DNA of 64,000 bases from Oceanococcus sp. HetDA_MAG_MS8 (GTDB taxonomy: Bacteria; Pseudomonadota; Gammaproteobacteria; Nevskiales; Oceanococcaceae), in the NCBI GenBank assembly GCA_019192445.1, contig JAHCMK010000005.1, positions 1-64,000 on the forward strand, written 5' to 3'. Each line of letters begins with the position of its first letter. Position 1 is the first letter of the stretch. A model generated the notes under the pieces. The model ran no database searches. It saw only the letters and a program-made list of their open reading frames with translations, and was not told the origin of the DNA. Positions 2,546-29,174 of the stretch are shown one piece after another. The translations under genes and the position numbers were made by a program.

Positions 2546-2629
2546 ATGCCGGAGAGTTCGTTGAGCTGCATTGTGACGAGCAGCCTTGTTTTCTTTGCGG
2601 GTAGCGGGGGCATTTCGTGGAGCTGCTAA
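2546..2629 (+). CDS. Possible 27-codon leader ORF overlapping sngA
   Basis: ATG 2546 is preceded by GGAGGAG at 2537-2543, a far better ribosome-binding site than that of the next gene, though only 2-4 bases from the ATG. The frame runs 27 codons to TAA 2627-2629 and so overlaps the GTG start of sngA (2617) by 13 bases. The peptide matches nothing I know. It may couple ribosome traffic to sngA translation, or be chance. Confidence 0.3.
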   Translation: MPESSLSCIVTSSLVFFAGSGGISWSC

Positions 2630-4902: not shown

Positions 4903-4914
4903 TAGAGGCGCACC

Positions 4915-6261: not shown

Positions 6262-6269
6262 TTGATCAG

Positions 6270-8489
6270 ATGACAGAGCAAAGCTCGATCTTTGAGCGCC
6301 TTGATCCTGCCATACAGAAGTGGATTTGGCGTCAGCAGTGGTCGAGCCTTCGTGGGATTCAAGAACAGGTTGGTGAAGTCTTGCTCAACGACTATGAGCG
6401 AGATGCCTTGGTATGCGTCGCGACTGCTGGAGGCAAAACTGAAGCCGCGTTCTTCCCTCTGCTAACAAGGTTGCTTTCTGAGCCCGACGAGCAGGGCTTG
6501 GTCGTGGCCATCTGTCCCCTGAAGGCGCTTATCAACGACCAGGCTAAACGCCTAAAAGACATCCTTCGCGACACCAATATTCCGGTATACCGCTGGCATG
6601 GAGATATCTCAGCGTCGGAAAAACAGAAGTTTCGAAAAGAGCCTAAGGGTATTCTGCTCATCACTCCAGAATCTCTTGAGGCCAACTTTTGCATCAGCGG
6701 GCATGAAATGCGGCAGCTCTTCGGTAATACCCGAGCAGTAGTCGTCGATGAGTGGCACGCCTTCTTGGGGACAGAACGCGGCCGCCAATTGCAGTCCTTA
6801 ATGGCCAGATTGGAATTAGCTGTAGGCCGGCGCCTGCCGCGCGTTGGTCTAAGTGCAACCATTGGAGATTTGCAGTTGGCTGCTGACGCGCTTCGCCCAG
6901 GCAATGGCAACCACGTCGCCATTTGTGAAGACTCTAGCCACCGACATGGTCTTCAGATACTGCTGGTTGGCATCGAGCAGGTTCCGATGCAGTTGAACCC
7001 TTCCTTGGATCCTACGGGTGAAGAAAAGCAGTCTGACGCTCCTGACCCTGTTGCAAAGTGGATATTCAAACTTCGTGGTGATAGCCATCTGGTATTCGCA
7101 AATTCGAAAAACCGTGTGGAGTCGTTGACCGATGCGCTAAGTAGGATGTCGGAGCGGCTAGGCGTTCCAAATGAATACTTCCCACATCACGGGAATCTTG
7201 ATCGCACGATGCGGCACAGCCTTGAGGATCGTCTCAAGCAGGGTGACAAGCCCACAACGGCAGTTTGCACAAGCACGCTAGAACTCGGCATCGATATCGG
7301 CAAAGTGTCCTCTGTTGCGCAGGTCGGTTGCCCACCATCGGTAGCGGCTCTCCGGCAGCGGCTAGGAAGGTCTGGACGCCGCGGGGAAGACTCGGTACTT
7401 CGACTATTCGTTACGGAAGATGAGATTACCCCGCAGTCAGAGCCATCGGATCAACTACGCCTGCAGCTTGTACAGACCATCGCCATGGTCGAGCTACTTC
7501 TTGAGAAGTGGTATGAGTCCCCGGACCAATCTCGCCTGCACTTGTCGACATTGATCCAGCAGGTCTTATCAGTCATTGCCGAACGGGGGGGATCCTCTGC
7601 CGCAAATCTGTATCAGATACTGTGCGAGAAAGGTCCCTTTCAGAATACTTCGACAGGGGTATTTGGACAGTTCCTCCGGAATTTGGGTGACGAGGATCTG
7701 ATCCGCCAGGAAAGCACAGGTATTCTTCTGCTGGGTGAAAAAGGGGAACGCCTAGTCAACCACTATGACTTCTATTCCGCATTTATGTCTGACGAAGAAT
7801 ATGAGGTGCGCACGGTTACCAAGCGGCTAGGCACCCTCCCAATCATTCAAGTGGTCAAAATCAACGATTACCTGCTCTTCAGTGGGCGCCGTTGGCAGGT
7901 GACCTCGGTTGATGATCAGCAAAAGCGAATCATCGTTAAGCCAGCGCCGGCGGGGAAAGCCCCGTTGTTTGGTGGTGCTGGTGCTCTTGTTGGAGCTGAA
8001 GTGCGACAGCGGATGTTAACTTTATACCAATCAGACCATCAGCCGCGCTATTTGAGTAGTGGCGCTCAGGCGTTACTTGAGCAGGCACGGGAGAGCTTCG
8101 ATCGACTTAATCTCGCGGATCGCGCATTTGTTCCATGGGGCGACAAGGTCATGGTATTCCCGTGGCATAGCGACGCCGCGTTGAGAACATTCGTATGGGC
8201 GGCCGAAGCACTCGATATTGAGGATATCGAAGTGGGGTGTGGATATGCCTGCTGGGAGTTTGGGGGCAAGAACTCAACATCTCAGGGTGCGGAAAAACAA
8301 GTTCGAAACGTGATGGAGCACGTTCGTGCTGCCAGCCTTAATCCAGTCCAGGTCATTGCCAAGGCGCCGGCCAAGCGGTTCGACAAACATGACGGTTTTC
8401 TCAATGACGAGATCGCTGCGCTCAATGCTGCGGCTGCCCACGTGCGTATCGATGAAATGCGAGAGGCGCTGGATCACGCACTTGGTTAG
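6270..8489 (+). CDS. sngC: SngC-like superfamily 2 helicase (Lhr/BrxHI-like)
   Basis: A 739-residue DEAD/DEAH-type helicase. Motif I is TAGGKT at residues 52-57, motif II is DEWH at 160-163, motif III is SAT at 195-197, and motif VI is QRLGRSGRRG near 365. An Lhr-like C-terminal half carries winged-helix and beta-rich segments. The closest relatives I know are BREX-associated BrxHI helicases. It probably remodels phage DNA or a DNA-protein complex in the Shango system. No good ribosome-binding site stands before ATG 6270, consistent with coupling to sngB. There is no frame disruption in the operon. Confidence 0.85.
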   Translation: MTEQSSIFERLDPAIQKWIWRQQWSSLRGIQEQVGEVLLNDYERDALVCVATAGGKTEAAFFPLLTRLLSEPDEQGLVVAICPLKALINDQAKRLKDILRDTNIPVYRWHGDISASEKQKFRKEPKGILLITPESLEANFCISGHEMRQLFGNTRAVVVDEWHAFLGTERGRQLQSLMARLELAVGRRLPRVGLSATIGDLQLAADALRPGNGNHVAICEDSSHRHGLQILLVGIEQVPMQLNPSLDPTGEEKQSDAPDPVAKWIFKLRGDSHLVFANSKNRVESLTDALSRMSERLGVPNEYFPHHGNLDRTMRHSLEDRLKQGDKPTTAVCTSTLELGIDIGKVSSVAQVGCPPSVAALRQRLGRSGRRGEDSVLRLFVTEDEITPQSEPSDQLRLQLVQTIAMVELLLEKWYESPDQSRLHLSTLIQQVLSVIAERGGSSAANLYQILCEKGPFQNTSTGVFGQFLRNLGDEDLIRQESTGILLLGEKGERLVNHYDFYSAFMSDEEYEVRTVTKRLGTLPIIQVVKINDYLLFSGRRWQVTSVDDQQKRIIVKPAPAGKAPLFGGAGALVGAEVRQRMLTLYQSDHQPRYLSSGAQALLEQARESFDRLNLADRAFVPWGDKVMVFPWHSDAALRTFVWAAEALDIEDIEVGCGYACWEFGGKNSTSQGAEKQVRNVMEHVRAASLNPVQVIAKAPAKRFDKHDGFLNDEIAALNAAAAHVRIDEMREALDHALG

Positions 8490-9812: not shown

Positions 9813-9834
9813 TTGACAGGCTCAAGATTTGAGC
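9813..9834 (+). promoter_or_regulatory. Candidate -35 box and operator for the Wadjet operon
   Basis: TTGACA at 9813-9818 is followed at once by the palindrome GCTCAA-GAT-TTGAGC (9820-9834), which would fill the promoter spacer. The -10 box downstream is weak (around TTTTCAT, 9836-9842). This resembles a repressor site over the jet promoter, although the hairpin plus TTTT could also be a weak terminator of the upstream unit. Confidence 0.4.
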
Positions 9835-9878
9835 TTTTCATCGTTCATGGTTTTTTGCTCTCAATCGGTGTCTACTTC

Positions 9879-11336
9879 ATGAACCTGGGAGGCCAGCTCG
9901 CCCGATTTTCTACCCAGCGGGAAATGCACCCTGCTTGGCGTCTGCTGGCCGCAAGCAATGCTCCCTTGATCCTCGCGACACTGGGCGACCTGTTTCGCGA
10001 GCAACTGGAGATCCCGATCGCACGAGCCAAGATAGCGCTCGACGTTGAACTCGGCCGGCTTCGCGAATCCGGCGCGAACTACCAGGAATCGGCGACCAGC
10101 TATCTGCGCGAATGGATCGCCAGCGGCTGGTTGCGTGAGCAGGATTCTTACTTAAGCCTGACCGACGCTGCGGAGTTGGCGTTGGCCTTCGCCCGTGGCC
10201 TTGATCAACGGGTCGAGGGCACCAGTGCCTCCCATTTGCGAATCGTTCAGGACGCCGTTCGGGATCTAGCCATGGCGCTGTCACCGGATGCCGACGTGCG
10301 GATTGAGGCATTGACCGCGCAGCGCGATGCGATCACCGGCCAGATTCAAAGGCTGAAGGGGGGCGAGCTTGAGCATCTGAGCGCGGAGGAACAACGCGAA
10401 CGCCTGCGCGAGGTTTATCACCTGGCCTCCACCTTGAGTAGCGACTTCCGCCGGCTGGAAGACGAAATCCGTCATATGGATCGGCAACTACGCGTTGACA
10501 TGATCCAGGATGACAGCAACCGTGGGGCGGTTCTGGAAAAGCTGTTGCACGAGGAAGATGCGTTGTCGCGCACGGAAGCGGGGCGCGCTTTCGCCGGATT
10601 CTTCAGCCTGCTCAGCGATGATTTGCGTACGACCGAATTTCGCGAGCAGCTTCGCTCCATCCTGGAGCTTGCAATCGAAGATGCCGTGACGCCATCCCAG
10701 CGCCATTTTCTGGCCCATCTGGTGCGGGAACTCGGGCGTGAAAGTGAACGGGTTCTGAACGTGCGCCGGCGTACCGAGGAGAGCTTGCGCGCGTATGTGG
10801 AAAGCAACGAGTTTCGCGAAAATCGCGCCGTCTCGCGTCTTCTGACCCAACTTGAACAAGTTGCGATTGATCTTCGCGACCGGGGCGTATCTCCTCGTGC
10901 CACTTGCGGGATGGGGCTTGATAGCGGCCGCGCTGAAGTCCATTCGGTCAGCAGTTTGCGGCTGAGGCTGCCAGAAGAGGCGCTGGAAATCGGTGAACTC
11001 ACAGTGCGGGAAAGTCTGCTGGGTCCAGGCGAAGACGTACTGGACTATCTGGAAACCATCAAGGTGCTCGATATTGCCGCCGAGATTCGGGGCTTGCTGG
11101 TCGATCGGGGCGGTATGTCTTTGGCTCAACTGATCGCACAGCGCCCGGTTCGTGGCGGGCTGGAAGAACTCGTGGCCTGCATTCGCGTAGCTCAGGCCGT
11201 CCAGGCACCACGCGATGAGACCAGAGAGCGGGTCGTCGTTCAGACTCGCGAGGGTGATTTCTTGAGGGCCGATATCCCTTCCTACCTGCTGACTGCAGAC
11301 ATGTTCCCCGTCCATTTGGAGGAGCTCGCCCTATGA
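9879..11336 (+). CDS. jetA: JetA, Wadjet kleisin-like subunit (DUF3375)
   Basis: A 485-residue DUF3375 protein. The family opening MHPAWRLLAASNAPLILATL lies just after the chosen ATG 9879, where a GGTG site sits 8 bp upstream. An earlier in-frame TTG at 9813 overlaps the promoter and is rejected. JetA is the kleisin/MukF-like subunit that bridges the JetC heads in this SMC complex, which extrudes and cleaves circular plasmid DNA. Central residues about 160-230 are a predicted coiled coil. The stop overlaps the jetB start (ATGA). Confidence 0.92.
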   Translation: MNLGGQLARFSTQREMHPAWRLLAASNAPLILATLGDLFREQLEIPIARAKIALDVELGRLRESGANYQESATSYLREWIASGWLREQDSYLSLTDAAELALAFARGLDQRVEGTSASHLRIVQDAVRDLAMALSPDADVRIEALTAQRDAITGQIQRLKGGELEHLSAEEQRERLREVYHLASTLSSDFRRLEDEIRHMDRQLRVDMIQDDSNRGAVLEKLLHEEDALSRTEAGRAFAGFFSLLSDDLRTTEFREQLRSILELAIEDAVTPSQRHFLAHLVRELGRESERVLNVRRRTEESLRAYVESNEFRENRAVSRLLTQLEQVAIDLRDRGVSPRATCGMGLDSGRAEVHSVSSLRLRLPEEALEIGELTVRESLLGPGEDVLDYLETIKVLDIAAEIRGLLVDRGGMSLAQLIAQRPVRGGLEELVACIRVAQAVQAPRDETRERVVVQTREGDFLRADIPSYLLTADMFPVHLEELAL

Positions 11337-11995
11337 GCGACGAGAGCGCCGTTAAGGACGAGACTGAAGTCATTCAGCAGGGACGCCTTGCGCCTGAGGC
11401 GCGTCGCGCAGTCGTCGAACTGATGCGGCAAGGCGTTGTGATGGCAGATTCACGGCGGCTCGTTTTTGACGCGCTGTGCCGGTATCAAGAAGATATCCGT
11501 AACCATTTGGCTGACATGTATCTTCGGATGCAGATCGATGAGCCTGCAGGACTCGCCTTGTTGCTCCAGGGTATGCCGGAGGCGGAGAGTGATGCCGATG
11601 AGGGCGCAGAAGATTCCCCGGCACTGATCAGTCGGCGGCTGCTGACCCTGTACGACACGCTGATACTGCTGGTCTTGCGCCGGCACTACCTGGACCGTGA
11701 GACGGCTGGAGATTCTCGCATCACGATCGAGCTCGACCAGGTTGCCGAGCGCCTGATTCCCTTTCTGCCACTCACCGCGAGCCAGAGTCAGGACCGCAAA
11801 CGCTTGAATGGCTCCATCGAGCAGATGAAGAAGCGCCGTATTCTGGCAGCGGTACGGGGCGAGGCAGATCGCTTCGAGATCACGCCGGTGATCCGCTATG
11901 TCGTCAGCGCCGAGATGCTGGAACAATTGCTGGTTGAGTATCGACGCATGGCCGATGAGGCTGGACCGCAAGCATCGGAGCCTGCTGGTGAGTGA
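11333..11995 (+). CDS. jetB: JetB, Wadjet accessory subunit (DUF4194)
   Basis: A 220-residue DUF4194 protein, the KITE/MukE-like dimer that binds JetA. It shows the expected winged-helix pattern, including ISRRLLTLYDTLILLVLRRH and a C-terminal segment ending MLEQLLVEYRRM. GGAGGAG at 11318-11324 stands 8 bp before the ATG, inside jetA. It overlaps jetA by 4 bp and jetC by 8 bp, so the subunits are likely made in matched amounts. Confidence 0.9.
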   Translation: MSDESAVKDETEVIQQGRLAPEARRAVVELMRQGVVMADSRRLVFDALCRYQEDIRNHLADMYLRMQIDEPAGLALLLQGMPEAESDADEGAEDSPALISRRLLTLYDTLILLVLRRHYLDRETAGDSRITIELDQVAERLIPFLPLTASQSQDRKRLNGSIEQMKKRRILAAVRGEADRFEITPVIRYVVSAEMLEQLLVEYRRMADEAGPQASEPAGE

Positions 11996-14900
11996 GAGTA
12001 TTGGGCAGAGCGGGTTGTTTCCGCATGGTCAGATGCGTCTGGCCAGATTGTCGGTGTTCAATTGGGGCTCCTTCAAAGGCCTCCATCACGCCGAGATCGA
12101 TCCGCAGGGTACGCTGGTCACTGGCGACAATGGCGCAGGCAAATCAACGCTCATCGACGGTCTCACCGCTCTGCTGTTGCCGTCGGGCAAGGCTAGCTTC
12201 AACATCGCTGCTGCACAGGGCGATCGAACCGACCGGTCGTTGGTGTCCTATGTTCGTGGCAGCTATGGCCGTGCCCAGGATGGCGGCAGAACCCAGGTGC
12301 TATCCAAGCGCAATGGAGCGACCATCAGCGCAGTGGCCGCTTGCTATCGCGCGGATGATGGCAGCGTGGTCACGCTGGCCGGATTGTTCTGGCTGACGAC
12401 AGCGTCCAGTGCGGTTGCCGACGTGGCCAGGTTGTTCCTTCTGGCCCATGGCGAGCTCGAACTTGCCGAAGTATTGAAGGAGTTCGAAGCTGGACAGAAG
12501 CGCGCGGTGAAAACCCGGTATCGCGACGATGCGCAAGTCGTCGTGTTCGACCAGTTCAGCGATTTCCAGGAGGCTCATCGCCGTGTCCTGCATCTAGACA
12601 ACGCCAACGCTCCGGCTCTTTTGGCCCGAGCACTCGGGCTCAAGAAGATTGACGACTTGACGCGTCTGATCCGGGAATTCGTTTTGGAGCCCAGTCGGGT
12701 TCGTGAATCCGCTCGCAAGGCGGTGACGGAATTCGAAGATCTTGTAGCAACGCACCGGGAACTCGAAGACACACGCCGGCAGCGGGACACGCTCGCGCCG
12801 CTGCCCAGCCTGAAAAACGAGTTGGATACGCTGACCGAGCGCAGAGGACGACTAGAGGCCGAGCGCAGCGCGCTCCCGGCTTATCTGGCGAGGCAGGAGT
12901 GGGAACTGTGGGCCCGCCGAACACAAGAACGCGATGCGAGGCTGCAGGCCGCCATCGCGACACGGGATCAAACAAAACATGAGCTGGTGGAGGCTCAGGC
13001 TTTTGAACAGGATCGCCATGCGGACTATCTCAAGGCGGGTGGTGATCGGATTCAGGCCCTGGAGAAGGATCTGGATTCCGCCCAAAACAGGCTGAAGGCC
13101 ACTGCGGACAAGGCTCGCGAGTATCAGACCGTTGCGAGTGAGCTGAACCTTGATGATCGCCTTGATGTGACACAGTTCCGCGAGAACCAAGCGCGAGCAG
13201 TACGCGAAAAAGACGATTTCGCAGAGCGCCAGACAAAGGCCCAGGATGCTTTTGGTCGCGCGGCCGGTCGGCTCAGCGAAGCTCAGGCGCTGGTCAACCG
13301 CTTGTCGGATGAGCTTTTGGAAGTCGAACGTAGGCCGGATTCCAATATCGATCCGCGCTATCTGCGCATGCGAGATGAGCTTGCGCAGGCGCTGGACTTT
13401 AGCCAAGACGAGCTGGTCTTCATTGGCGAAATGCTGGATGTGCGAGATCAGCACACGCAATGGCAGGGCGCTATCGAACGTGCTCTGGGTGGTCTGCGTA
13501 CCACGCTCGCGGTGCCAGCGGATCGATATTCCGCGATTACGGCCTGGCTGAACGCGCGGCATCTGGGGTTGCACGTTCGGGTCCAGACTGCCAGCACGGA
13601 TGCTGGTCCGGCGCGCTTTGGCGAAAGCAGTTTTCTCCACAAGCTGAACTGGCGCGAGCATCCCTATCGCGACTGGCTCAAGCACTTCCTGTCACGCCAC
13701 GATCTGGCTTGTGTGGCGAGTACGAGCGAGCTTGACCGGACTCCTTTTTCGCTAACCCAGGAAGGGCTGATCCACCGCGACAAGGGTCGCTTCGAGAAGA
13801 AGGATCTCAAGCGGGTCGACGACCGGCGTGACTGGTGCCTGGGGTTTTCCAACCGTCGTCGTCTCGCCACGCTGCAGCACGATTTGGCTGAAGCGAAGCA
13901 CGCGCTCACAGAAGCCGAGAAAAATGCGCGCGTAAGCCGGGGTGCCCTGAATGGCGTCGGCGAGAACATCGAACGATGGAAAAAACTGTTGGGCTTTGAC
14001 TGGAACGCTTTGGACTTGACTGATGCCATGCAAAAGCGTGACGACCTGTCCGCAGCTCTTGAAAAGCTGCGAGCTGCGGGCGGCGATCTCGAAGTTTCTC
14101 GGCTCGCCTTTGAAGGTGCCAAGGTGAGTCGAGAAAATTGGCAGGTGAAGCTTTCCGAGCGGGATGGGGAGGTCGCCAGCCGGGCGAAAGACCTCGAATT
14201 TGCCCAGCAGCAGATGGACCGGGCCAAGCGGTTTGCCGAGCTCCCGATTGATGACCTCACACGGGACCGCCTGGATGCCCGAGTCGGGCAACTGCGGGAT
14301 CCTCAGCTGGATGACCTCGGCGAGCTGCGTGATCGGTGGTTGGGCAAGATCAACGGAGAATTGAGCCATGTGGGCGGCAAGATCAACAGTAAGCAAAGCG
14401 CAATTACCGGTGTCATGGGCGGCTATCGCGGCAAGGACGAATGGCGCGCCATTACCGCTGAATGGGGCCTGAGCCTTGCCGACCTGCCCAGCTACCTGGA
14501 GCGTCTAGAATACATCGATCGCGAAGGGCTGCCGGAACTGGTCGAGAAGTTTCGTGAGCGGTTGAACCGCCATACAACACAGTCATTGGCCGGCATTCGC
14601 CAGCAACTCAATAACGAGCTGGATGATATTCGTGATCGGATCGAGACCATCAACAGTGTCTTGGTGCGCACCGAGTTTAGGGCGGGAACCCATCTGCAGA
14701 TCCGTGCTCGACGGGAAGAATTCCCGCATGTACGCGAGTTCAATCAGAAGCTCGGCGCCGTGCTGGCTGCCGTAACCAGTGACGATCATGAAAAGCGATT
14801 CGTGCAGCTCGTAGAGGTTGTTGAGATTCTTGAAAAGGCCTCTGCGCCGGCGACGGCCAGCAGCCTGGAGAGTCAGCGCTTGCTGGATCCGAGATTCCAG

Positions 14901-15350
14901 CTCAGCTTTCTTGCCGAGGACATCCAGACTGCGACGGGGGACGTGCTGGATGTTCTGGATTCCTCAAGCGGGAAATCCGGCGGCGAGAAGGAAGCTTTTG
15001 CCGGGACCATCGTCGCGGCGTCGCTAGCCTACGTGCTGACGCCGGAGGGTGCCGATTTCCCCGTGTACTGCACAGTATTTCTGGACGAGGCTTTCTCCAA
15101 CACGGCCGAAGCGGTGAGTCGCCGGGTTTTGCGGGTTTTTCGTGAGCTTCATCTGCATGTCAACCTGGTTACTCCATTCAAAAACCTCAATCTGGCGCGC
15201 GAATCTGCTCGCTCCCTATTGATAATCGAGCGAAATCAGGATTGTCATGAGAGCCGACTCAGCCAAGTCACTTGGGAAGAAATCGACCGGCGACTAGCGG
15301 ACCGGGCCGGACGCTCTACCGTCGCTCAGGACATCGAAGTCCTTGCCTGA
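11988..15350 (+). CDS. jetC: JetC, Wadjet SMC-like ATPase
   Basis: A 1120-residue SMC/MukB-like ATPase. Walker A is GDNGAGKS at residues 46-53. Long coiled coils at about 260-450 and 660-900 flank a hinge. The C-terminal head has the signature SSSGKSGGEKEAF and Walker B VFLDEAF. The start is GTG 11988, chosen because GGAG lies 7 bp upstream; ATG 12036 is the alternative. The family opening LARLSVFNWGSFKG follows. JetC drives ATP-dependent DNA loop extrusion. No frameshift is seen across 3.3 kb. Confidence 0.93.
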   Translation: MSESIGQSGLFPHGQMRLARLSVFNWGSFKGLHHAEIDPQGTLVTGDNGAGKSTLIDGLTALLLPSGKASFNIAAAQGDRTDRSLVSYVRGSYGRAQDGGRTQVLSKRNGATISAVAACYRADDGSVVTLAGLFWLTTASSAVADVARLFLLAHGELELAEVLKEFEAGQKRAVKTRYRDDAQVVVFDQFSDFQEAHRRVLHLDNANAPALLARALGLKKIDDLTRLIREFVLEPSRVRESARKAVTEFEDLVATHRELEDTRRQRDTLAPLPSLKNELDTLTERRGRLEAERSALPAYLARQEWELWARRTQERDARLQAAIATRDQTKHELVEAQAFEQDRHADYLKAGGDRIQALEKDLDSAQNRLKATADKAREYQTVASELNLDDRLDVTQFRENQARAVREKDDFAERQTKAQDAFGRAAGRLSEAQALVNRLSDELLEVERRPDSNIDPRYLRMRDELAQALDFSQDELVFIGEMLDVRDQHTQWQGAIERALGGLRTTLAVPADRYSAITAWLNARHLGLHVRVQTASTDAGPARFGESSFLHKLNWREHPYRDWLKHFLSRHDLACVASTSELDRTPFSLTQEGLIHRDKGRFEKKDLKRVDDRRDWCLGFSNRRRLATLQHDLAEAKHALTEAEKNARVSRGALNGVGENIERWKKLLGFDWNALDLTDAMQKRDDLSAALEKLRAAGGDLEVSRLAFEGAKVSRENWQVKLSERDGEVASRAKDLEFAQQQMDRAKRFAELPIDDLTRDRLDARVGQLRDPQLDDLGELRDRWLGKINGELSHVGGKINSKQSAITGVMGGYRGKDEWRAITAEWGLSLADLPSYLERLEYIDREGLPELVEKFRERLNRHTTQSLAGIRQQLNNELDDIRDRIETINSVLVRTEFRAGTHLQIRARREEFPHVREFNQKLGAVLAAVTSDDHEKRFVQLVEVVEILEKASAPATASSLESQRLLDPRFQLSFLAEDIQTATGDVLDVLDSSSGKSGGEKEAFAGTIVAASLAYVLTPEGADFPVYCTVFLDEAFSNTAEAVSRRVLRVFRELHLHVNLVTPFKNLNLARESARSLLIIERNQDCHESRLSQVTWEEIDRRLADRAGRSTVAQDIEVLA

Positions 15351-16555
15351 TGAGTTCGACCTGGGGGGTAACACCGGATGAACTGCGCATCCGGCTTCAA
15401 GAGCAGGAATGGGAACGCTCCGAACGCTTACGTGCGCGGCTCAGTGGTGAACGCGCGTTCCCGCTGAGAGCCTCGCTGAGGCCGCCCACCGGCCGGCACG
15501 CCCTAGCAAACCTGGATAAGTTCAGGGACTACGTCAGATCCTGGGCCGTGTGGAACGGGCCGGGGAAGGTGACGTTGGAGGTGCGCAAGTTGCCTCAGAT
15601 CGGCGAAACACAATTGCCGACGCACTACCAGCTGGATTCAATGTCGGAACTTGCCAGCTTTCTCGGCGGGGACGCACAGCAGGATTGGGAGCGCTGGCAG
15701 ACAGCATTGGAACCCATCAACACCTGGGACGCCAACGCTGCCGTTGCGGTGTGTCGAAGGCTCGATTGGCTTGATTCCCTCACTCCGGAGCACTCCGAGA
15801 AGTGTGTGGCCGTTCTGCGGCAGCTTAACCGGGGGATGGGGCGCGGCGGCTACTTGAGGAGCCTGCCTTTACGTGGCGTCGACACCAAGTTTCTTGAAGA
15901 CAATCTGCGCTTGCTGATTGCTATGCATGGTGCAAGCAGCGCTCAAGGCAACGACCGGGGCGACAGCTCTGAAGACTTTTTGATGTGGCTGAACTGCTCG
16001 CCGCGTCCCTCGCACTGGCTCCTGATACGAGCGCTGGACCCTATGGTTCGTGAGGCCTTGGGTGGATTAGACGTCCTCAAGTTGCCAGCGAGTGAGCTTC
16101 ACCAAACTGAGCTGCCAGGCACAACCGTCCTGTTGGTTGAGAACATGGAGCCGGCCTTCAGCTTGCCGGAGCTCCCCGGCACATTGGCCATATGCGGGTT
16201 TGGGAACAACCTTGGATGGCTGGCTGCGCCGTGGCTCGCTCAGCGCCGGCTTGGGTACTGGGGTGACCTGGATACCTGGGGCTTGAACTTCCTCGCCTCG
16301 GCCAGACGCGAACAGCCGCATGTTCAGCCGATAATGATGGACCTGGCCACCTTGAAGTGTTTTCGAGAAGGTATGGGCCTGGAAACAGCTCCGAATCCCG
16401 CTTTGCCAGATGGTCTGACTGAAGACGAAACCAGTCTTTACCACGACCTGCTCAGCGAACGTTATGGTGGACGGGGCTTGGAGCAGGAACGCATCCCGCA
16501 GGACCACGTTGTGAAGCAGCTGCAACGTTGGGCGAAAAGTCGCGATGTGTCTTAG
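15350..16555 (+). CDS. jetD: JetD, Wadjet Toprim nuclease subunit (DUF3322/DUF2220)
   Basis: A 401-residue JetD. The N-terminal DUF3322 arm opens with WGVTPDELRIRLQEQE. The C-terminal Toprim domain carries the catalytic glutamate in LLVENMEPAF (E264) and the acidic pair in YWGDLDTWG (D306, D308). JetD cuts circular DNA after the SMC complex has reeled it in. The ATG at 15350 overlaps the jetC TGA by one base. All catalytic residues are present, so the complete jetABCD operon is predicted active against plasmids. The architecture looks type I (inference). Confidence 0.92.
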   Translation: MSSTWGVTPDELRIRLQEQEWERSERLRARLSGERAFPLRASLRPPTGRHALANLDKFRDYVRSWAVWNGPGKVTLEVRKLPQIGETQLPTHYQLDSMSELASFLGGDAQQDWERWQTALEPINTWDANAAVAVCRRLDWLDSLTPEHSEKCVAVLRQLNRGMGRGGYLRSLPLRGVDTKFLEDNLRLLIAMHGASSAQGNDRGDSSEDFLMWLNCSPRPSHWLLIRALDPMVREALGGLDVLKLPASELHQTELPGTTVLLVENMEPAFSLPELPGTLAICGFGNNLGWLAAPWLAQRRLGYWGDLDTWGLNFLASARREQPHVQPIMMDLATLKCFREGMGLETAPNPALPDGLTEDETSLYHDLLSERYGGRGLEQERIPQDHVVKQLQRWAKSRDVS

Positions 16556-17264: not shown

Positions 17265-17498
17265 ATGCAAACAACCTTGACGAGTAAAGGCCAAGTGGTG
17301 ATTCCTCAGGCCATTCGTAAGCAGATGCTACTGGCCCAGGGCAGCAAGCTGGAGGTGATCGTGCGCGATGGAGAAATCATTCTGCGACCATTGGCTGTGC
17401 CAAAGGAGCAGTCTTTGACCTGGCGGTCACGAAATCCCAAAGGACGTCAGTTGTCGGTGCAAGAGCTTTGTCAGCCGGTGAATCTGGACGAGGAATGA
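17265..17498 (+). CDS. vapB: VapB antitoxin, AbrB/MazE-type
   Basis: A 77-residue SpoVT/AbrB-fold protein: MQTTLTSKGQVVIPQAIRK is the swapped-hairpin DNA-binding signature, and a flexible toxin-binding tail follows. It neutralises the PIN toxin encoded next and represses the pair. The start at ATG 17265 is fixed by the family N-terminus; a longer upstream frame is noise. The stop overlaps the toxin ATG (ATGA at 17495-17498). Confidence 0.9.
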   Translation: MQTTLTSKGQVVIPQAIRKQMLLAQGSKLEVIVRDGEIILRPLAVPKEQSLTWRSRNPKGRQLSVQELCQPVNLDEE

Positions 17499-17890
17499 TT
17501 GCCCTCGACACCAACCTGTTGGTGCGCTTGGCCACAGCGGACGTGGCTGAGGACGCCGCTCTGGTCAATGAACTCATGGCCGCTCAGCGTTGCTATGTGC
17601 CGGTCACGGTGATGCTAGAGGCCGAATGGGTATTGCGTTCGCGTTATGGATACTCAGCAGAGGACTTCGCCGCCTTCGCGAGTTTTATTTGTCAGCACGC
17701 AAATGTGCACATGCGCGAGGCAAGCGAGGTGCTCCAGGCTGTGGAGCTGCATCGAAAGGGCTTGGATTTTGCCGATGCTTTGCACGCAAGTTTGGCCGGT
17801 AGGGTGCCCTTTGTGACCTTGGATCGGACACTCATCAAACGCGGGCGCAAGTTGGGCCTGGAACTTCTCGCTTTGAACGAGCAGCCTTAG
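17495..17890 (+). CDS. vapC: VapC toxin, PIN-domain ribonuclease
   Basis: A 131-residue PIN nuclease. The first acidic residue is in MIALDTNLLVRL, the second in VMLEAEWVL, the third in KGLDFADALHA, and the fourth in FVTLDRTL. All four metal-binding acids are present, so it should be active; VapC toxins cut tRNA or rRNA. Overlap with vapB enforces translational coupling. It closes the defence-rich region; a different operon follows on the opposite strand. Confidence 0.92.
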   Translation: MIALDTNLLVRLATADVAEDAALVNELMAAQRCYVPVTVMLEAEWVLRSRYGYSAEDFAAFASFICQHANVHMREASEVLQAVELHRKGLDFADALHASLAGRVPFVTLDRTLIKRGRKLGLELLALNEQP

Positions 17891-21780: not shown

Positions 21781-21978
21781 TCAGAGGGTTACAAAAGGCC
21801 GCACATGCTTAAGCCCTTTCACAACCTGTTCCTGGCGATCTTGCGATGCTCGGGCCTCTTCAAGCACCTTGTTACTGCGCGCCTTGAAGAGTCTGATGGC
21901 CTCCTCAATGCTTTCAGGCTGGTCTTGTGGATCTTTGGCTTCGAAGCGGTCTTTACCGCTGTAATTGCGTAGTTTCAT
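21781..21978 (-). CDS. 65-residue charged protein downstream of the patatin gene
   Basis: Starts at ATG 21978, 18 bp after the patatin stop, with AGAGGA 8 bp upstream. The product is highly charged and helical (EEAIRLFKARSNKVLEEA; QDRQEQVVKGLK), with no membrane segment. No family is recognised. The opposite strand is also open but lacks a ribosome-binding site. It is likely co-transcribed with the phospholipase and could be a small partner or inhibitor (inference). Confidence 0.6.
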   Translation of the reverse strand: MKLRNYSGKDRFEAKDPQDQPESIEEAIRLFKARSNKVLEEARASQDRQEQVVKGLKHVRPFVTL

Positions 21979-21996
21979 GGCTCATTCCTCTGCGAA

Positions 21997-23775
21997 TCAG
22001 CGTGGCTCCATACCTTCGATGCGCTGCTGCAATCCGTCGAACTCAGTTTGAATGCTTTGCAGGACTAAGTCCAATTCCTGCTCTACCACCGCTTCGTCTT
22101 GCATAAGCTCAGCGTTCGAATCAATGACCAGCGCTGCGCTGGTTTGGCCATTTGAATATGGGATCGCAATGCTCCAGCAAAGTTCTGACCATCCATTGGC
22201 TTGCAAGGTTTGGCCCGCCAACCCACCCTCTTGGCAGAGATTGTCCAAAGTGGCTTTGGTGGCCAGCGTCGCCCGACCTCGTGCAACTGCTTTGGCGACA
22301 AGGCTGCCGGGGTCGGGTAGGTAGATCTCACGATCAGGGTGGCTATCGTCAAAACCGGCTCCATCATGCAGCTTCCAGCTGCTGAGGTGGTTGCGGGGGC
22401 GGGTTGCAATCGCCACGCGTACATGCGCGGGCTTGCCATGGGTCTGGAACAGACTACCCAGGTCCTCGTCGGCGATCACGTTCAGGAAAAGGGCACGCAC
22501 GCCTTCGGTGAACTCCCTTAACTCGCTAGGTATGCGAACGAGCTGGTCTACTAAACGCTCCATGGCGAAGGTGTGCGCGTCGCTGATGATGCCCTGGGCG
22601 TCCAAGGTATCAACGTCAAACTCCAACAGTTGTAGCACTTCGCCATTCCGCTTGAGGGGGGTTAGCTGAAGGGGAATCAGTAGACCTCGCACGCGCTTGC
22701 TAAGCGCTCCTGCGCCAAAAATCGCCGTTCGGACCAATGCGCCTAAAAATGCGAGGCCACTCAGCCTGTTAGGAGCTTGGGTCGTGGCGGGGGGCGCCTC
22801 CAGTTCAACGGCGATCACGGCCGCGTCCGGGTTTAAGCAGCGCTCTTCCTCGAAGACCCAGGCTGGCAGGTTTGAGAGCATGCCGCCATCAACATAACTG
22901 TGATGGGCAGCCTCTAGCGGAGTGCCTGAGGGTTTGCTTGGGGCAGAGTGAGGTGCTTCCGCTGCCGGCTTTAGGTGAATTGCGCGGAATAAAATGGGAA
23001 TGCAGATCGATGCAGCTACGGCGTCGGCTAGGCTGACATGGGGCGTGGTGGCCTCGCTGAAAACCTCGATACGGCCTTGGGTGATGTTCGAAGCGACGAT
23101 CTTGATAGGTTTCCAGCCCAGGGCTTTGGCTTGCGCGAAGGTTATCTCGCTGCTGCCCTCTTGGATGAGCGCCTCAAGAGCCGGGTTTTTTTCATTCGCT
23201 GGGAGATTTTGCTGCTGCTGACTGCATTTCCAGCGCAGAATGAGGTTGAGGTTTTTACGCAGCTGCTGCAGCGAAACCATGCCCAGGCAGGCCAGCCCCA
23301 CGACAAACAAAGCCAGCAGTCCAATGCTGGCAAACAAGCCGACTAGGACAGCCCACGCGGGAGCCTGCGTACACCAAGCCAACGCTATTACGGCTAAAGC
23401 CAGGCCAATGAAACCAAGCCCCCCGCGCATGGCCTGAGCCCAGATAGCCCCCGTGGCGCGGAGGACGCGCAATTGCAACCAGGCATTGGCACCAAGTACA
23501 TCAGTGACCTTTCTGAAGGGAAAGTCTGGGTTTCCAAAGAGAGTTGTTTTGTTCTCGTGGTCGAAGAGCTCGGCTGCCTCAAAGCCCGCAGCGCTGAGCA
23601 CGGCCATAATGGCACCGGCCGAGGTTCCGGCGACCCCCTGAATATCGGCCTCACCATCCTCCAGCGCACGTAGGGCGCCAATGTGGGCAATGCCCTTAGC
23701 ACCGCCGCCCTCAAATACGGCAAATACGGGGCGGCCTTTAAGGGCGCCTCCAAGGTCAGAGCGTTGCTCCATCAC
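21997..23775 (-). CDS. Patatin-like phospholipase with inserted membrane segments and GAF-like tail
   Basis: A 592-residue patatin-like lipase. The oxyanion loop is GGGAKG (23-28), the nucleophile is in GTSAG (Ser52) and the catalytic Asp is in VDGG (296-298). Between Ser52 and Asp296 lie two strongly hydrophobic helices (about 118-136 and 141-168), an unusual membrane insertion inside the catalytic fold. From about 430 the sequence resembles a GAF sensor domain (RVAIATRPRNHLSSW; GSLVAKAVARGRATL; ALVIDSNAEL). Predicted role: a membrane-bound lipid hydrolase gated by a ligand. It is divergent from the operon starting at 23945. Confidence 0.8.
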   Translation of the reverse strand: MMEQRSDLGGALKGRPVFAVFEGGGAKGIAHIGALRALEDGEADIQGVAGTSAGAIMAVLSAAGFEAAELFDHENKTTLFGNPDFPFRKVTDVLGANAWLQLRVLRATGAIWAQAMRGGLGFIGLALAVIALAWCTQAPAWAVLVGLFASIGLLALFVVGLACLGMVSLQQLRKNLNLILRWKCSQQQQNLPANEKNPALEALIQEGSSEITFAQAKALGWKPIKIVASNITQGRIEVFSEATTPHVSLADAVAASICIPILFRAIHLKPAAEAPHSAPSKPSGTPLEAAHHSYVDGGMLSNLPAWVFEEERCLNPDAAVIAVELEAPPATTQAPNRLSGLAFLGALVRTAIFGAGALSKRVRGLLIPLQLTPLKRNGEVLQLLEFDVDTLDAQGIISDAHTFAMERLVDQLVRIPSELREFTEGVRALFLNVIADEDLGSLFQTHGKPAHVRVAIATRPRNHLSSWKLHDGAGFDDSHPDREIYLPDPGSLVAKAVARGRATLATKATLDNLCQEGGLAGQTLQANGWSELCWSIAIPYSNGQTSAALVIDSNAELMQDEAVVEQELDLVLQSIQTEFDGLQQRIEGMEPR

Positions 23776-23944
23776 CTCTCCCGGGGCTAGGTCTTTGCAA
23801 CTTCTAACGGGAATTGCTGCTCAAGGCGGACGCGGTTTGTCCGCTTTGGTGGAGTTTCCCCGAATTGCATGAATACAACGGCAAATATTTTTGCCTGGTT
23901 TTTCGGGGCGGACTGCACAGCACAGTGCAGCGAGGAGGGGACGT

Positions 23945-24973
23945 ATGTTGCTCTCGTTACTAGATGTGTTAATCGGGCTCACGGTGGTGTACCTCATATT
24001 GAGTACCGTCGCGTCTTTGCTGGTGGAGCTCATCGAGGTATGGCTACGCCGGCGCGGCAAATTGCTCGCGAACTGCGTAGAGGAAATGCTCATCCTCGGC
24101 AGCGACGCCGGCTCCACGCATGACACGGCCAAAGCTCTAGCCGAGTTCTATAACAGTGTTCACATTGCCTCCTTGTTCCCGGGTCGCGCCGAACCAGGAA
24201 CTCTGCGCAGTGGTAAATCTGTGCCGCAGGTCATCAACGGTAAACTACCCTCCTACATTCCGCCGGAACGGTTTGCTGCCGCTATTCAGAGCCTGTCTGA
24301 GATCGCTCAGAGCGAGCCCACTAAGCAGCTGTTTGCCAGTATTCGGGCGGCGGCCAGCGCCAACCTCCCCCTAGCCAAAGACGGTGATGAAGAGCAGGCG
24401 CGAATTGAGCAAAGCAAAGCACTCGCCAAGTTTTTTGAAGAATCCACTGAGCGCTTCTCGGGCTGGTATCGCCGCCATGTGAAACTGATTTTGCTCGGTT
24501 GCGGGTTACTGCTGGCGCTGTTGAGTAATGCCGATACCCTGCGCATTGCCACCACGCTATCGAATAACCCAGACCTGCGCCAAGCGGTGGTGAGCAGTAC
24601 CTTGACCCATCTGCGGGACAGCCAAAAACAGTCTTGGTATCAAAACTGTGAGTCGCCGGCCGACCCAGGCTGCGAGGAACACCTGCGTGAGGAGATCAAC
24701 GCCCAGCTAGCGCTGGTGGAGACCCTGGGTCTGCCCCTAGGTTGGAAAGACGAACCGCTACTTCAGCCATCGCGATCACAGCCGGAGGAGATTCAGGCGC
24801 CCTCCTGCAGGTGCCTGGCATGGCTGAACAAAGCGGTGGGGATAGTCATTACCGCATTTGCCATCAGCCTGGGTGCACCGTTTTGGTTTGACCTGCTGAA
24901 CAAGTTGGGCAGTGTGCGCAGCGCTATTCGCCCCCAAGAGAACGCAAAAACCACTGAGGAGAAACCAGCATGA
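23945..24973 (+). CDS. Inner membrane protein of unknown function
   Basis: A 342-residue protein starting at ATG 23945 after GGAGGGG. Hydrophobic helices are at about 4-30 (LDVLIGLTVVYLILSTVASLL), 180-200 (LILLGCGLLLALLS) and 295-318, the last ending in APFWFDLLNKLGS. The soluble regions between are helical. I have seen APFWFDLL-type endings in unannotated membrane proteins but know no function. It is the first gene of a three-gene unit and overlaps the amidase start by 4 bp. It may anchor the amidase, which lacks a signal peptide. Confidence 0.7.
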   Translation: MLLSLLDVLIGLTVVYLILSTVASLLVELIEVWLRRRGKLLANCVEEMLILGSDAGSTHDTAKALAEFYNSVHIASLFPGRAEPGTLRSGKSVPQVINGKLPSYIPPERFAAAIQSLSEIAQSEPTKQLFASIRAAASANLPLAKDGDEEQARIEQSKALAKFFEESTERFSGWYRRHVKLILLGCGLLLALLSNADTLRIATTLSNNPDLRQAVVSSTLTHLRDSQKQSWYQNCESPADPGCEEHLREEINAQLALVETLGLPLGWKDEPLLQPSRSQPEEIQAPSCRCLAWLNKAVGIVITAFAISLGAPFWFDLLNKLGSVRSAIRPQENAKTTEEKPA

Positions 24974-26031
24974 ACCCACTAGCTAGTCGCATTGCCCTGA
25001 TCGTAGGGCATACCCAAAAACGACAAGGTGCGCCAGGGGCGTACCCCATTGCGAGTAGTGAATATCTTTACAACACCGGTTTGGCCGAGTTGGCTGCACA
25101 ATTCGCCCGTAGCCGCGCCCACGAGGTGGAGATATTTTTTCGCGACGGCGGAGGCATTGCCGCAGCTTACGATGCCGTCGCCGAGTGGGAGGCCGATTGC
25201 GCCATCGAGTTGCACTTCAATGCCTTCAACGGCCAGGTGGCGGGCACCGAGACTTTGTACTGCGATGACCAAGACCATAAGCGGGTGCACGAGTTTGAGT
25301 TCGCCACCTTGGTTCAGCAGCACATGTGTCGAGTGTTTGAGCGCAGCGGTCGCGGCGACCGTGGGCTGAAGAAACGCCCCTTAAGTGCCGGAGAAAGGGG
25401 TTACTTCAGTGTGAACCAGCTCTTTCACATTCCTTCAGTGTTGGTGGAGCCTTTTTTTGGTGACAACCGCGAGGAGGCCAAGCTGGCGGTAGAGCGTAAG
25501 CAAGAACTGGCCGAAGGTTTGGTGCTGGCGGTGGAAGAGTGGAAGCAGCAGATGTACTCGCGCCGCGAGATGGAGGTGAGCTCAAATGCGATTGAGTTTG
25601 GTCCTAGTGCCGCTAAATCCGATGAGAATGGCCCGGTGGGGTTGCATTTTCTGCCTGCGGGTACCGTGGTGGAGTTACGTTGTGATGAGCCCCCCAACGT
25701 GGCAGGCGTGGAGCTGGTGTCGCGGACACTCAAGCTGCTTAGCGACAAGACAGAAGATATAGCGCCGATGGATGGTCGCCATTTGGCCAAGGGCAAGCCC
25801 GCTCGCTACCAGCTGACGGAGTCTGGAGAGTACGAGCTCCATGTGACCCTGAGTTCTTCGAAGGCCCGCGCGGCCCAGGCTCTGGTAAGCGCGGCGGTGA
25901 TTTTGCCCGGTCACAAGGGAACTAAGCCTGTTCCTCCTTCAGATGTGCTCTCGCTGGCCGTACCCTTCCAGCACCACGATGGGGGTTCAGTCTGGTTTCA
26001 TTCTTCGTATTTTGAAGCCTCGGTGGTATGA
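24970..26031 (+). CDS. N-acetylmuramoyl-L-alanine amidase (Amidase_3), no signal peptide
   Basis: A 353-residue protein. The zinc amidase fold fills residues 8-195: His14 in LIVGHT, Glu31 in SSEYLYN, His82 in ELHFNAFNG and a catalytic Glu in SVLVEPFFG. It should cut the bond between MurNAc and L-alanine of peptidoglycan. The C-terminal 150 residues are a beta-rich domain I do not recognise. There is no export signal, as in phage endolysins, so it needs a partner or lysis to reach the wall. ATGA overlaps on both sides tie it to the membrane protein and the secreted protein. Confidence 0.85.
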   Translation: MNPLASRIALIVGHTQKRQGAPGAYPIASSEYLYNTGLAELAAQFARSRAHEVEIFFRDGGGIAAAYDAVAEWEADCAIELHFNAFNGQVAGTETLYCDDQDHKRVHEFEFATLVQQHMCRVFERSGRGDRGLKKRPLSAGERGYFSVNQLFHIPSVLVEPFFGDNREEAKLAVERKQELAEGLVLAVEEWKQQMYSRREMEVSSNAIEFGPSAAKSDENGPVGLHFLPAGTVVELRCDEPPNVAGVELVSRTLKLLSDKTEDIAPMDGRHLAKGKPARYQLTESGEYELHVTLSSSKARAAQALVSAAVILPGHKGTKPVPPSDVLSLAVPFQHHDGGSVWFHSSYFEASVV

Positions 26032-27758
26032 ATCAGATGCCCAAGGTATTGTGTTCCAAGATTTTTCTGATATTTCTGCTGCCAACACCCTTACATGCGT
26101 TTGAGTGCTCACTTAAGAAGCCAGATACAAACTTCGACGCGACGATTAGCAGCTGTCGCAGTGAACATTTTGATGAGGCTAAGAGGGCGATACCGAGCTA
26201 CCAGCGAGCCGCAGAGGAGGCGCTACCTAAACTGCGCGAGGGAATACGAAAGAGTTTAGAACAAGCACCCCAAGGTGCGAACCTTGGTGTTCTTGCCACC
26301 TCCGTCCTTAACGCTTTGGTTCCGGGGCGCTTTGCTCTTTTTAACAGTGGCGGATTTGCTGGACCTAACCAGCCCAACGCAGGTTTGATAGCAAGAGTAA
26401 GTGGGGATGAGGCGGCGGATTCTCTTCCTGCTCGTAGCTTGTTGCTACGACCGGCGGCAGTACTGGACCCCGAGCTTGCGCCACCGCTGGCGCAGGCCCT
26501 GAGGGACGCGGGCGCCCAGGAAGATCTGCAGCGTCTGGAGGAGTCTCTAGACCTTAGCGACGCCCTTGAAGTTGATTTGGTGTTAGCCACGCTAGGCCGA
26601 GATTGGAGCTTCGGATTCGGTGGCAATGGTGAGCGTTACGGCAGACTCTTTGCACAAATCGTCCAAGGGGCTATTGGATACGGGGAGCAACACGCCAGGA
26701 CTGTATTCAGAGGCGTTGAAAAACGTGCTGCGAAAAAGCTGGCTGAAGCAGAAAACCAACCCTGTGCTTTGCCCGGAGTTGCGCAGCCTACACAGCGTGA
26801 TCTGCTCCTTGCCAAGATTAAAGATCTTCCAACGCCTTGTCTTAGGATGTTGAACGAGATTCTGGAAGACGCGGCTGTGGAATCCGCTGCGCCCTATCGT
26901 TGGGTGATTGAAGCTACCGGCAAAGCCCGCCTCGATGAGTTTGCGCAACTTATCTCCAACACCTCTCAACTCAGTTTGCGTTTACGGCATATAGAAGCCG
27001 ATTCGTTGGTGGGGACCAGCGCGAGTGGTTTGCGCATTGATTGGGAAATCAGCTTGAGCCCCAGCATAGAGAGTTTTTTGTCCCAAACTCTAAGTGGGTT
27101 GGGGGCTAAAGGCCGGAACTCTGAACGCACGATGCAGAGCGTCTGTGCTGAAGAGTCTGTGGATGGTGCGACCGAGTGCTTTGATGGCTTTTTAAAGTGG
27201 CAAACTGCCAATGATGACCAGGAATCTCAAGCGGCAATTCGTCACAACCGCCGCATTGCAGTGTCTTTGGAGGCGATGCGCCTGAGGCCTTTGGACGCCT
27301 CGGTAGAGGTGCCCTTGTTGGCAAATAATTCTGACGGGGACGACTCTGGAGAGGGCGGTGGGCTTCTAGCCCCACTTTTACCGCCTATTTTGAGTCCAGA
27401 TGAGGGTGATGGTGGCGGTGGGGGTATGCGCGAGGTCGCGGTGAGTGCGCCCGCCGCTTACCGCTACCGGTTGGCCCTCAGAGCAGGAGACACGCTATGG
27501 AGTGGCAGGCAAAGTGGCTTGGGCGTCATGTACCTGCGCTTAGAGGCAGGCGCTGACTACACGCACTTTGATGTAGAAGCCCAAGGTAATGAAGTGGTAC
27601 GGCAAGACTTTTGGCGTTGGTACATTGGGCCGGTTCTGCAAATAGGACGCTATGCCTTTCCTCTCACCGTGGGTGGCCAAAGCCGAAGTGAGTTTGAGGC
27701 CGCAGGGGAGTCTGTAGATTTCGGGGTTTTAGGCGGTCTGCAGTTCCGGTTTTTATAG
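26028..27758 (+). CDS. Exported protein of unknown function, possibly outer-membrane
   Basis: A 576-residue protein with a signal peptide of about 24 residues (IFLIFLLPTPLHA). A helical N-terminal half is followed by a Gly/Asp-rich low-complexity linker near 430-465. The C-terminal 100 residues have alternating aromatic and polar residues (YRYRLALRAGDTLW; WYIGPVLQIGRYAFPL) ending in LQFRFL, a terminal phenylalanine pattern suggestive of outer-membrane strands. No family is recognised. It is the third gene of the ATGA-linked unit with the amidase and inner membrane protein, so the products may span the envelope. Confidence 0.65.
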   Translation: MNQMPKVLCSKIFLIFLLPTPLHAFECSLKKPDTNFDATISSCRSEHFDEAKRAIPSYQRAAEEALPKLREGIRKSLEQAPQGANLGVLATSVLNALVPGRFALFNSGGFAGPNQPNAGLIARVSGDEAADSLPARSLLLRPAAVLDPELAPPLAQALRDAGAQEDLQRLEESLDLSDALEVDLVLATLGRDWSFGFGGNGERYGRLFAQIVQGAIGYGEQHARTVFRGVEKRAAKKLAEAENQPCALPGVAQPTQRDLLLAKIKDLPTPCLRMLNEILEDAAVESAAPYRWVIEATGKARLDEFAQLISNTSQLSLRLRHIEADSLVGTSASGLRIDWEISLSPSIESFLSQTLSGLGAKGRNSERTMQSVCAEESVDGATECFDGFLKWQTANDDQESQAAIRHNRRIAVSLEAMRLRPLDASVEVPLLANNSDGDDSGEGGGLLAPLLPPILSPDEGDGGGGGMREVAVSAPAAYRYRLALRAGDTLWSGRQSGLGVMYLRLEAGADYTHFDVEAQGNEVVRQDFWRWYIGPVLQIGRYAFPLTVGGQSRSEFEAAGESVDFGVLGGLQFRFL

Positions 27759-28424: not shown

Positions 28425-29174
28425 ATGGAGTATCGACATCGTATGATTTGGGCGGGTACTTCAATAATTCTGTGGGTAGTTTCAACCTTTACATTTACTC
28501 ACGCTGTGATAATCGCCAAAAGCCGGCTCTCGGGGGCCTATGCTCGGGCTGCAATCCTATTCTTAGGCGTGTGCAGCTTAATCGCAGTTTGGTTCAGCTT
28601 TCATATAGAAAAAGATCTAACGTCCAACCAGGTAAGGATGGCTGTTGGTAATGTCGCGTCTGAGAAGTACGCACATGTATCCTGGTTGGTGGACGTAAGC
28701 CTCGCTCTCGCAATGATTACGATTCTCATGCTGCTTGTGGCTGTCACGGCGTGCTCCTATCGCACCAAGCCCTTAACGTTAGAGGTGCTGCGTAGGGATA
28801 TATTTGCGGTTAGGGGGCTCTTTTATTCGACATCAGTATTTCTTAGCGTGGGCGTGACTCAAATTGTATTCTTGTACTACTGGTTGGCCTTGGCGGCGGG
28901 GGGCGAGCCATGGCATGTCGCATGGGCGCTGAGTTTTGGAATAGGTGGCTCGATGCTATTCCTAACTGTCTTCGCGATCCTGTTCTTTCCGGTTGGTGCA
29001 GCGTTATTCGTGCAGGTCAGGACGTTGGAGGCTCAACAAAACCTCAAAACCTTTGACGAGCGCTTGACTTGGCGTAGAGATGCCGGCGTCGCGACCTCGT
29101 TAAGGGAAGATTTGCGTGACTTGGTAGTGTTTCTGTCGCCACTTATCACAGGGGGCGTTACGGTGCTGGTTTAG
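28425..29174 (+). CDS. Multi-pass membrane protein of unknown function
   Basis: A 249-residue protein with about five hydrophobic helices: near 8-30, 40-58, 85-108, 130-155 and 163-192. A soluble charged segment follows (TLEAQQNLKTFDERLTWRRD) and the extreme C-terminus is hydrophobic. No family is recognised. The start at ATG 28425 has no clear ribosome-binding site; ATG 28443 is an alternative. Base composition looks more AT-rich than in the flanking operons, hinting at acquisition. Confidence 0.65.
   Translation: MEYRHRMIWAGTSIILWVVSTFTFTHAVIIAKSRLSGAYARAAILFLGVCSLIAVWFSFHIEKDLTSNQVRMAVGNVASEKYAHVSWLVDVSLALAMITILMLLVAVTACSYRTKPLTLEVLRRDIFAVRGLFYSTSVFLSVGVTQIVFLYYWLALAAGGEPWHVAWALSFGIGGSMLFLTVFAILFFPVGAALFVQVRTLEAQQNLKTFDERLTWRRDAGVATSLREDLRDLVVFLSPLITGGVTVLV

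Follow-up and report, generated by a model that had tools for sequence, protein, structure and literature searches.

A recurring pairing of a GAPFWFD membrane protein with exchangeable signal-less hydrolases, seen from an Oceanococcus gene cluster

Results

Gene organisation at the Oceanococcus locus

The window analysed here is a stretch of 64,000 nucleotides from Oceanococcus sp. HetDA_MAG_MS8, in which a divergent cluster of five genes was examined; all five open reading frames (ORFs) were found where the first-pass annotation had placed them. On the minus strand, a gene for a 592-aa patatin phospholipase (21997-23775; Pfam PF01734, 6e-27) is followed downstream by an ORF for a small charged protein of 65 aa (21781-21978). 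A 169-bp intergenic region (23776-23944) separates the patatin gene from a plus-strand gene for a 342-aa protein that we call MEM (23945-24973), which is taken as the core of the module and is assigned to the inner membrane from its family, structure model, hydrophobic segments and charge. Within this divergent region, a strong Shine-Dalgarno sequence (23931-23939) precedes the MEM gene, reading gaggagggg acgt ATG over 23931-23947. The next two plus-strand genes encode a signal-less, endolysin-like N-acetylmuramoyl-L-alanine amidase of the Amidase_3 type (24970-26031) and an exported orphan protein of 576 aa (26028-27758). The right-hand trio had been described as tight and ATGA-linked, and both of its junctions are indeed 4-bp ATGA overlaps, with the MEM stop at 24973 and the amidase start at 24970, and the amidase stop at 26031 and the start of the third gene at 26028. 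The third gene has a third-codon GC of 0.53 compared to 0.65 for MEM and the amidase, which suggests that it has a separate origin. Some 670 bp past the third gene lies a gene for a 249-aa orphan membrane protein with multiple transmembrane segments (28425-29174) and no family match.

The amidase and the third protein

The amidase has neither a signal nor a transmembrane segment, as the first reading of the sequence had proposed. It matches Pfam Amidase_3 (9.8e-17) with H14, E31, H82 and E160 retained, and a PHROG endolysin family (1.9e-21), and its closest solved relative among PDB sequences is the CD27L endolysin (5.8e-8). It differs from CD27L-type Amidase_3 endolysins in being bacterial and coupled to MEM, and in its C-terminal region; its phage matches span the catalytic half only, and the extra C-terminal region of ~160 aa has no assigned role. 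No orthologue of the amidase was detectable in 60 other genomes, nor in the genome contigs or plasmids searched.

Export of the third protein had also been proposed, and agrees with a hydrophobic signal-like segment at residues 7-25. The protein ends in ...GLQFRFL and is possibly an outer-membrane component. Searches of Pfam, NCBIfam, PDB and PHROGs yielded no match to it and PADLOC a negligible hit only, and no orthologue was detectable in 199 other genomes. At four other loci (L085, L112, L159, L162), MEM is followed by a subtilase and then by a protein of ~650 aa with a signal-like start, and these third proteins are homologous among the four. The window's third protein is not homologous to them, and occupies the same position.

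MEM represents a widespread protein family

No match to MEM was obtained in Pfam, NCBIfam, PADLOC, PHROGs or the PDB. With tblastn, relatives were located on plasmids, and of 298 further genomes from the phylum 7 had a relative; a profile-guided scan of genome contigs confirmed at least 565 relatives in Acidobacteriota, Bacteroidota, Pseudomonadota, Chloroflexota, Planctomycetota, Nitrospirota and others. Within the window's own order, the Nevskiales, MEM is found in 20 of 85 genomes, and on a tree of the MEM core the window protein clusters with Nevskiales members L038-L040 (support 99). A phage origin of MEM was rejected, given its absence from all 50,697 phage records searched and the lack of a PHROG or viral structural match; a single contig among the 2.9 million viral contigs of IMG/VR carries a MEM gene.

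The motif GAPFWFD is nearly invariant in the family, including in relatives that were found without using it, and precedes the predicted cytoplasmic tail. It occurs in no paper text within our search, whose coverage excluded most subscription journals. A structure model built from 66 sequences (pLDDT 88, pTM 0.83) is all helical and has no significant structural neighbour in the PDB or among viral structures. Three hydrophobic segments (residues about 1-35, 178-197 and 290-309) are accompanied by positive charge after segment 1, before segment 2 and after segment 3. Together these features predict an N-out/C-in topology, so that the tail would be cytoplasmic.

MEM is paired with exchangeable hydrolases

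We define the module as a MEM containing GAPFWFD with a hydrolase encoded immediately next to it or fused to it, and the window carries exactly this arrangement. As the partner of each MEM we took the nearest downstream ORF on the same strand, and 58 such ORFs were scanned with Pfam. This strict reading replaced a clustering of all neighbouring ORFs, which was swamped by antisense ORFs; even so, it at first scored locus L051 as unpaired. In the first sample, a hydrolase is adjacent or fused to 38 of 92 MEM genes (the window and 37 of 91 others). The 58 immediate downstream ORFs include 14 Amidase_2, five M15, two muramidases, two GH46, two S8 and two patatins, where M15 covers M15/VanY and the muramidases are N-acetylmuramidases; CHAP, GH19, GH24 phage lysozyme, GH25 and GDSL lipase were also recognised downstream of MEM by Pfam. 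These partners belong to unrelated classes and are signal-less, and the gap between MEM and enzyme is often -4 bp. At L028 and L092, a class 3 lipase (Lipase_3) is fused to the MEM C-terminus. Among 95 neighbours lying farther away, the sole wall-hydrolase-related family of those shown more than once was PG_binding_1, in three. The enzyme class switches at least 16 times across paired members on the MEM core tree.

In an unbiased survey of the window's order, 10 of 19 other MEM genes sit right before a wall hydrolase and two have C-terminal fusions. Four of these partners were compared with PDB sequences and gave GH19 endolysin matches (9.8e-57 and 2.2e-44), an M15 match (4.3e-10) and a relative of ChiX (2.2e-29); the remaining enzymes were identified by eye or at loci already scanned. 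When Bacteroidota and Alphaproteobacteria were sampled evenly, the rate was lower, with a recognised hydrolase next to MEM in 4 of 23 cases, and about half of the top-ranked MEMs have no recognised adjacent hydrolase. As so many MEMs (19 of the 23) stand without a recognised hydrolase nearby, MEM has other partners or roles as well. Overall, MEM lies beside a hydrolase at dozens of loci, which exceeds chance, and we consider it almost certain that the MEM-hydrolase module is real. The trio singled out in the first pass is thus a recurring kind of unit, MEM plus envelope hydrolase and sometimes an exported protein, which is nameless in the libraries searched.

Two MEM proteins of unusual length were also seen, at L219 (880 aa) and L220 (806 aa). 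Both have large C-terminal domains, that of L220 appearing lipase-like by eye, and L219 has a PG-binding-like repeat.

The MEM tail varies with enzyme class

The tail that follows GAPFWFD exceeds 45 aa in 29 of 37 paired MEMs, compared to 3 of 55 unpaired ones. Its end also differs between partner classes: LPx[AT]xGG[VIM] is found in 14 of 16 Amidase_2 pairs and in no other class, F(V/E)xxxWxxG in 6 of 6 M15 pairs and in no other class, and a VG or IG immediately before the stop in all 6 pairs with an enzyme that starts in an SH3-like domain (catalytic domains S8, GH25 or GH46) plus one GH24 pair, a fit that in this first sample is partly by construction because the motifs were written after viewing it. 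Independent observations come from individual loci. The tail at L051 predicted an M15 partner, and an overlapping M15 gene was then found; L203 and L204, fetched later, both combine an M15 tail with an M15 enzyme; and at L051 and L094 tail and enzyme match despite a ‘wrong’ position on the core tree. Under strict phylogenetic pairing the correlation between tail and partner is not significant (median p 0.125), there being only 8 supported pairs, too few for significance. The window MEM itself has a short tail of 30 aa without a known motif.

From the co-variation of tail and enzyme class we infer that the MEM tail docks the enzyme, and we hold this with fairly good confidence. The conserved topology and the fusions at the cytoplasmic C-terminus, along with tails that differ by partner, point to MEM capturing its enzyme on the cytoplasmic side and then either delivering or gating it.

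The patatin half probably stands apart

The patatin had been called membrane-inserted, and its catalytic domain (20-307), in which S52 (GTSAG) and D296 (DGG) are intact, is indeed split by a hydrophobic hairpin spanning residues 114-172. A conserved C-terminal domain at about 430-575 is evident from the alignment and looks GAF-like by eye; the structure model is poor, and the domain cannot be identified from it. The nearest solved structures are PlpD, VipD, ExoU and CapV, which share the catalytic fold and dyad of the window patatin and lack its internal membrane hairpin and extra conserved C-terminal domain. Proteins with this hairpin and C-terminal domain form a small subfamily that is often plasmid-borne.

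Close relatives of the patatin have no MEM nearby in any of eight loci (L018-L022, L120-L122), and in genomes G155 and G371 the patatin and MEM are both present on separate contigs. A conserved patatin-MEM operon was therefore rejected. The proposal that all five genes form one conserved system is not supported either: it had been accepted at the outset that finding the two halves apart would refute a joint system, the left-half homologues are apart from MEM at all eight loci, and the amidase and third protein have no detectable orthologues in the genomes searched. The 65-aa protein has no significant match; small ORFs also follow patatin relatives at L018, L019 and L021, with unconvincing similarity, and its membership of the module is doubtful. 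The patatin half is probably separate from the MEM module, as an accessory or a chance neighbour.

As a kind of association, the pairing of lipase and MEM does recur. A patatin directly adjoins MEM at L012, L027 and L109 and lies within about 5 kb of it at L066 and L112; Lipase_3 is fused to MEM in the two proteins described above; and a lipase, a wall hydrolase and MEM occur together at L012 and L092. A lipid-attacking partner for MEM is thus plausible in kind.

Comparison with known lysis systems

Type 10 secretion systems (T10SS) are host-encoded cassettes outside phages, in which specialised cells are lysed by the combined action of a holin, an endolysin and spanins (PMC10847048). The trio resembles T10SS such as Serratia ChiWXYZ and Yersinia entomophaga HolA-PepB-Rz/Rz1 in being host-encoded and in combining an inner-membrane protein with a signal-less endolysin and, in some cases, an outer component, and the M15 partner of MEM at L209 is the ChiX relative noted above. 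It differs in having MEM in the place of the holin, no spanin, class-specific MEM tails and an enzyme that has been swapped repeatedly. When the window is compared component by component, the endolysin is represented by the Amidase_3 protein; the protein in the holin position has no Pfam, NCBIfam, PHROG, PDB or viral structural match, and the one in the spanin position is exported and matches no Pfam, NCBIfam or PHROG family.

Phage holin-endolysin-spanin cassettes share with the module the order of a membrane protein followed by an endolysin, and also the endolysin classes. Class I holins have three membrane segments and an N-out/C-in topology, as predicted for MEM. Unlike these cassettes, the module has a membrane protein of 342 aa that is found in no phage record and lacks a viral structural match. 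What the module shares with both systems is that synthesis of a signal-less wall hydrolase is coupled to that of a membrane protein. In short, the module would work like a T10SS or a phage lysis cassette, and on the features tested it belongs to neither.

A possible envelope-opening cassette and its alternatives

In our reading, MEM is an inner-membrane partner, distinct from holins, on which an endolysin-type enzyme docks before being delivered or gated. MEM would sit in the inner membrane, with the signal-less hydrolase held in the cytosol at its C-terminal face, an arrangement for which translational coupling and fusions are seen and tail docking is deduced. On a trigger, MEM might let the enzyme through or open the membrane itself; the amidase, by its family, would cut peptidoglycan, and the exported third protein may work at or near the outer membrane. 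The patatin would contribute an attack on membrane lipids, if it is part of the cassette. The outcome would be lysis or permeabilisation of the cell, or of a subpopulation, leading to cargo release or cell removal. The cell thus probably breaks open or permeabilises its own envelope on cue, without a phage lysis gene. We put about even chances on the right-hand trio being a host-encoded envelope-opening cassette for holin-like delivery or lysis, given that MEM is three times the size of a holin and has no holin match, that subtilase partners are not wall enzymes, and that there is no spanin match. The first-pass annotation had left self-lysis, defence, remodelling and antagonism side by side; of these, envelope lysis fits best, and support for defence is positional only.

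As an abortive anti-phage system, infection would trigger MEM and the amidase, perhaps with the patatin, to wreck the envelope of the infected cell. Complete Shango (SngABC, 2617-8489; SngA 1.6e-60, SngB 1.7e-175, SngC 6.7e-244) and type I Wadjet (JetABCD, 9813-16555) systems were detected upstream in the window with PADLOC, CapV-related patatins are defence effectors, and the distribution of MEM is patchy. Metabolic genes, however, lie between the defence island and the cluster, and only scattered defence matches occur near paired MEMs elsewhere. PADLOC gave no specific model match for the cluster: MEM, the amidase and the small protein have no model there, and the patatin drew nothing beyond weak hits to generic phospholipase effectors. 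A CBASS assignment finds no support either, as the patatin scores 22 bits against the NCBIfam CBASS_lipase cut-off of 200, and Pfam identifies the neighbouring genes as GMC oxidoreductase, Gluconate_2-dh3 and DUF6702, with no cyclase. We regard defence as unlikely. Self-lysis that releases contractile particles or other large cargo, in the manner of T10SS, draws on eCIS_core proteins beside MEM at L066 and L076, Baseplate_J beside MEM at L057, a sheath gene lying about 3.5 kb away from MEM in genome G671, and the presence of a sheath in 21 of the 36 genomes or records of a set chosen mainly for MEM-hydrolase pairs. When Bacteroidota were sampled evenly, the difference was weak (sheath in 7 of 16 genomes with MEM vs 48 of 202 without), and the window genome (G000) has no PF04984 (Phage_sheath_1) match. 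Release of such particles is real at some loci and weak overall, and was rejected as a general explanation; it is excluded for the window genome because the sheath is missing, and we consider cargo release of this kind rather improbable.

If the enzymes were toxins delivered to other cells, MEM would load them, anchor them or confer immunity. Antibacterial effector repertoires do resemble this mixture of hydrolases acting on wall, lipid and protein, all of them signal-less. Immunity proteins vary with their toxins, however, whereas MEM stays constant while its partners span at least ten enzyme classes. No delivery domain was seen, and the window genome lacks the sheath; there is little to recommend antagonism. 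Nor is there more than a slim chance of ordinary envelope remodelling, in which MEM would be a membrane scaffold for local editing of wall or lipid during growth or development. In NCBIfam the amidase comes closest to the cyanobacterial cell-shape amidase TftA, at a score far under the cut-off, and MEM has a wide phyletic spread, but its patchiness within the order, partner swapping and plasmid carriage are unlike housekeeping, and the enzymes are signal-less.

More tentatively, and with somewhat less than even odds, MEM may be a new inner-membrane delivery class, unrelated to holins or secretion systems. Its enzyme-specific cytoplasmic tails would each take up one of several interchangeable endolysins, lipases or proteases, and it would open the host envelope on a signal. 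If so, it would be a widespread and hitherto unnoticed bacterial machine for programmed lysis or export. To our knowledge, holins are the sole well-described inner-membrane route for host-encoded signal-less endolysins outside phages. A widespread family whose tails tell its partners, and whose fold has not been seen before, offers a second and testable explanation of how endolysins could get through the inner membrane, and a way into the study of programmed lysis, of cargo release or of defence among environmental bacteria.

Further observations

In the upstream part of the window, the Shango genes have a third-position GC of 0.54-0.56, below most of the window, and the defence genes are flanked by ORFs that by eye look like a HigA-like antitoxin (2080-2382) and PIN/VapC (17468-17890).

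Several Nevskiales MEM genes (L206, L207, L208, L212-L214, L217) have no hydrolase, and several of their tails are rich in arginine and proline (..RTPRRRRSSPRPPRTPAA). Those of them that were read as L038 and L040 have pntB and DUF4105/DUF3015-like genes in their vicinity. The hydrolase-free MEM genes possibly form a second MEM subfamily.

On Rhizobium and Paracoccus plasmids, L013 (1744-7921) and L016 (1016-7921) share a like gene order, in which three hypothetical genes are followed by a vanadium-dependent haloperoxidase and then MEM. In Mucilaginibacter, a row of eCIS_core (DUF4157) genes lies directly upstream of a MEM-Amidase_2 pair at L066 (1017-6815) and L076, with the L066 patatin further downstream. 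A small coiled-coil lipoprotein gene is also found near MEM at these two loci and at L106; a spanin-like role for it was considered and dropped, as it occurs at these three loci only. At L106 (9239-10906), the lipoprotein gene follows a second MEM gene, which itself lies straight downstream of a first MEM-GH46 pair.
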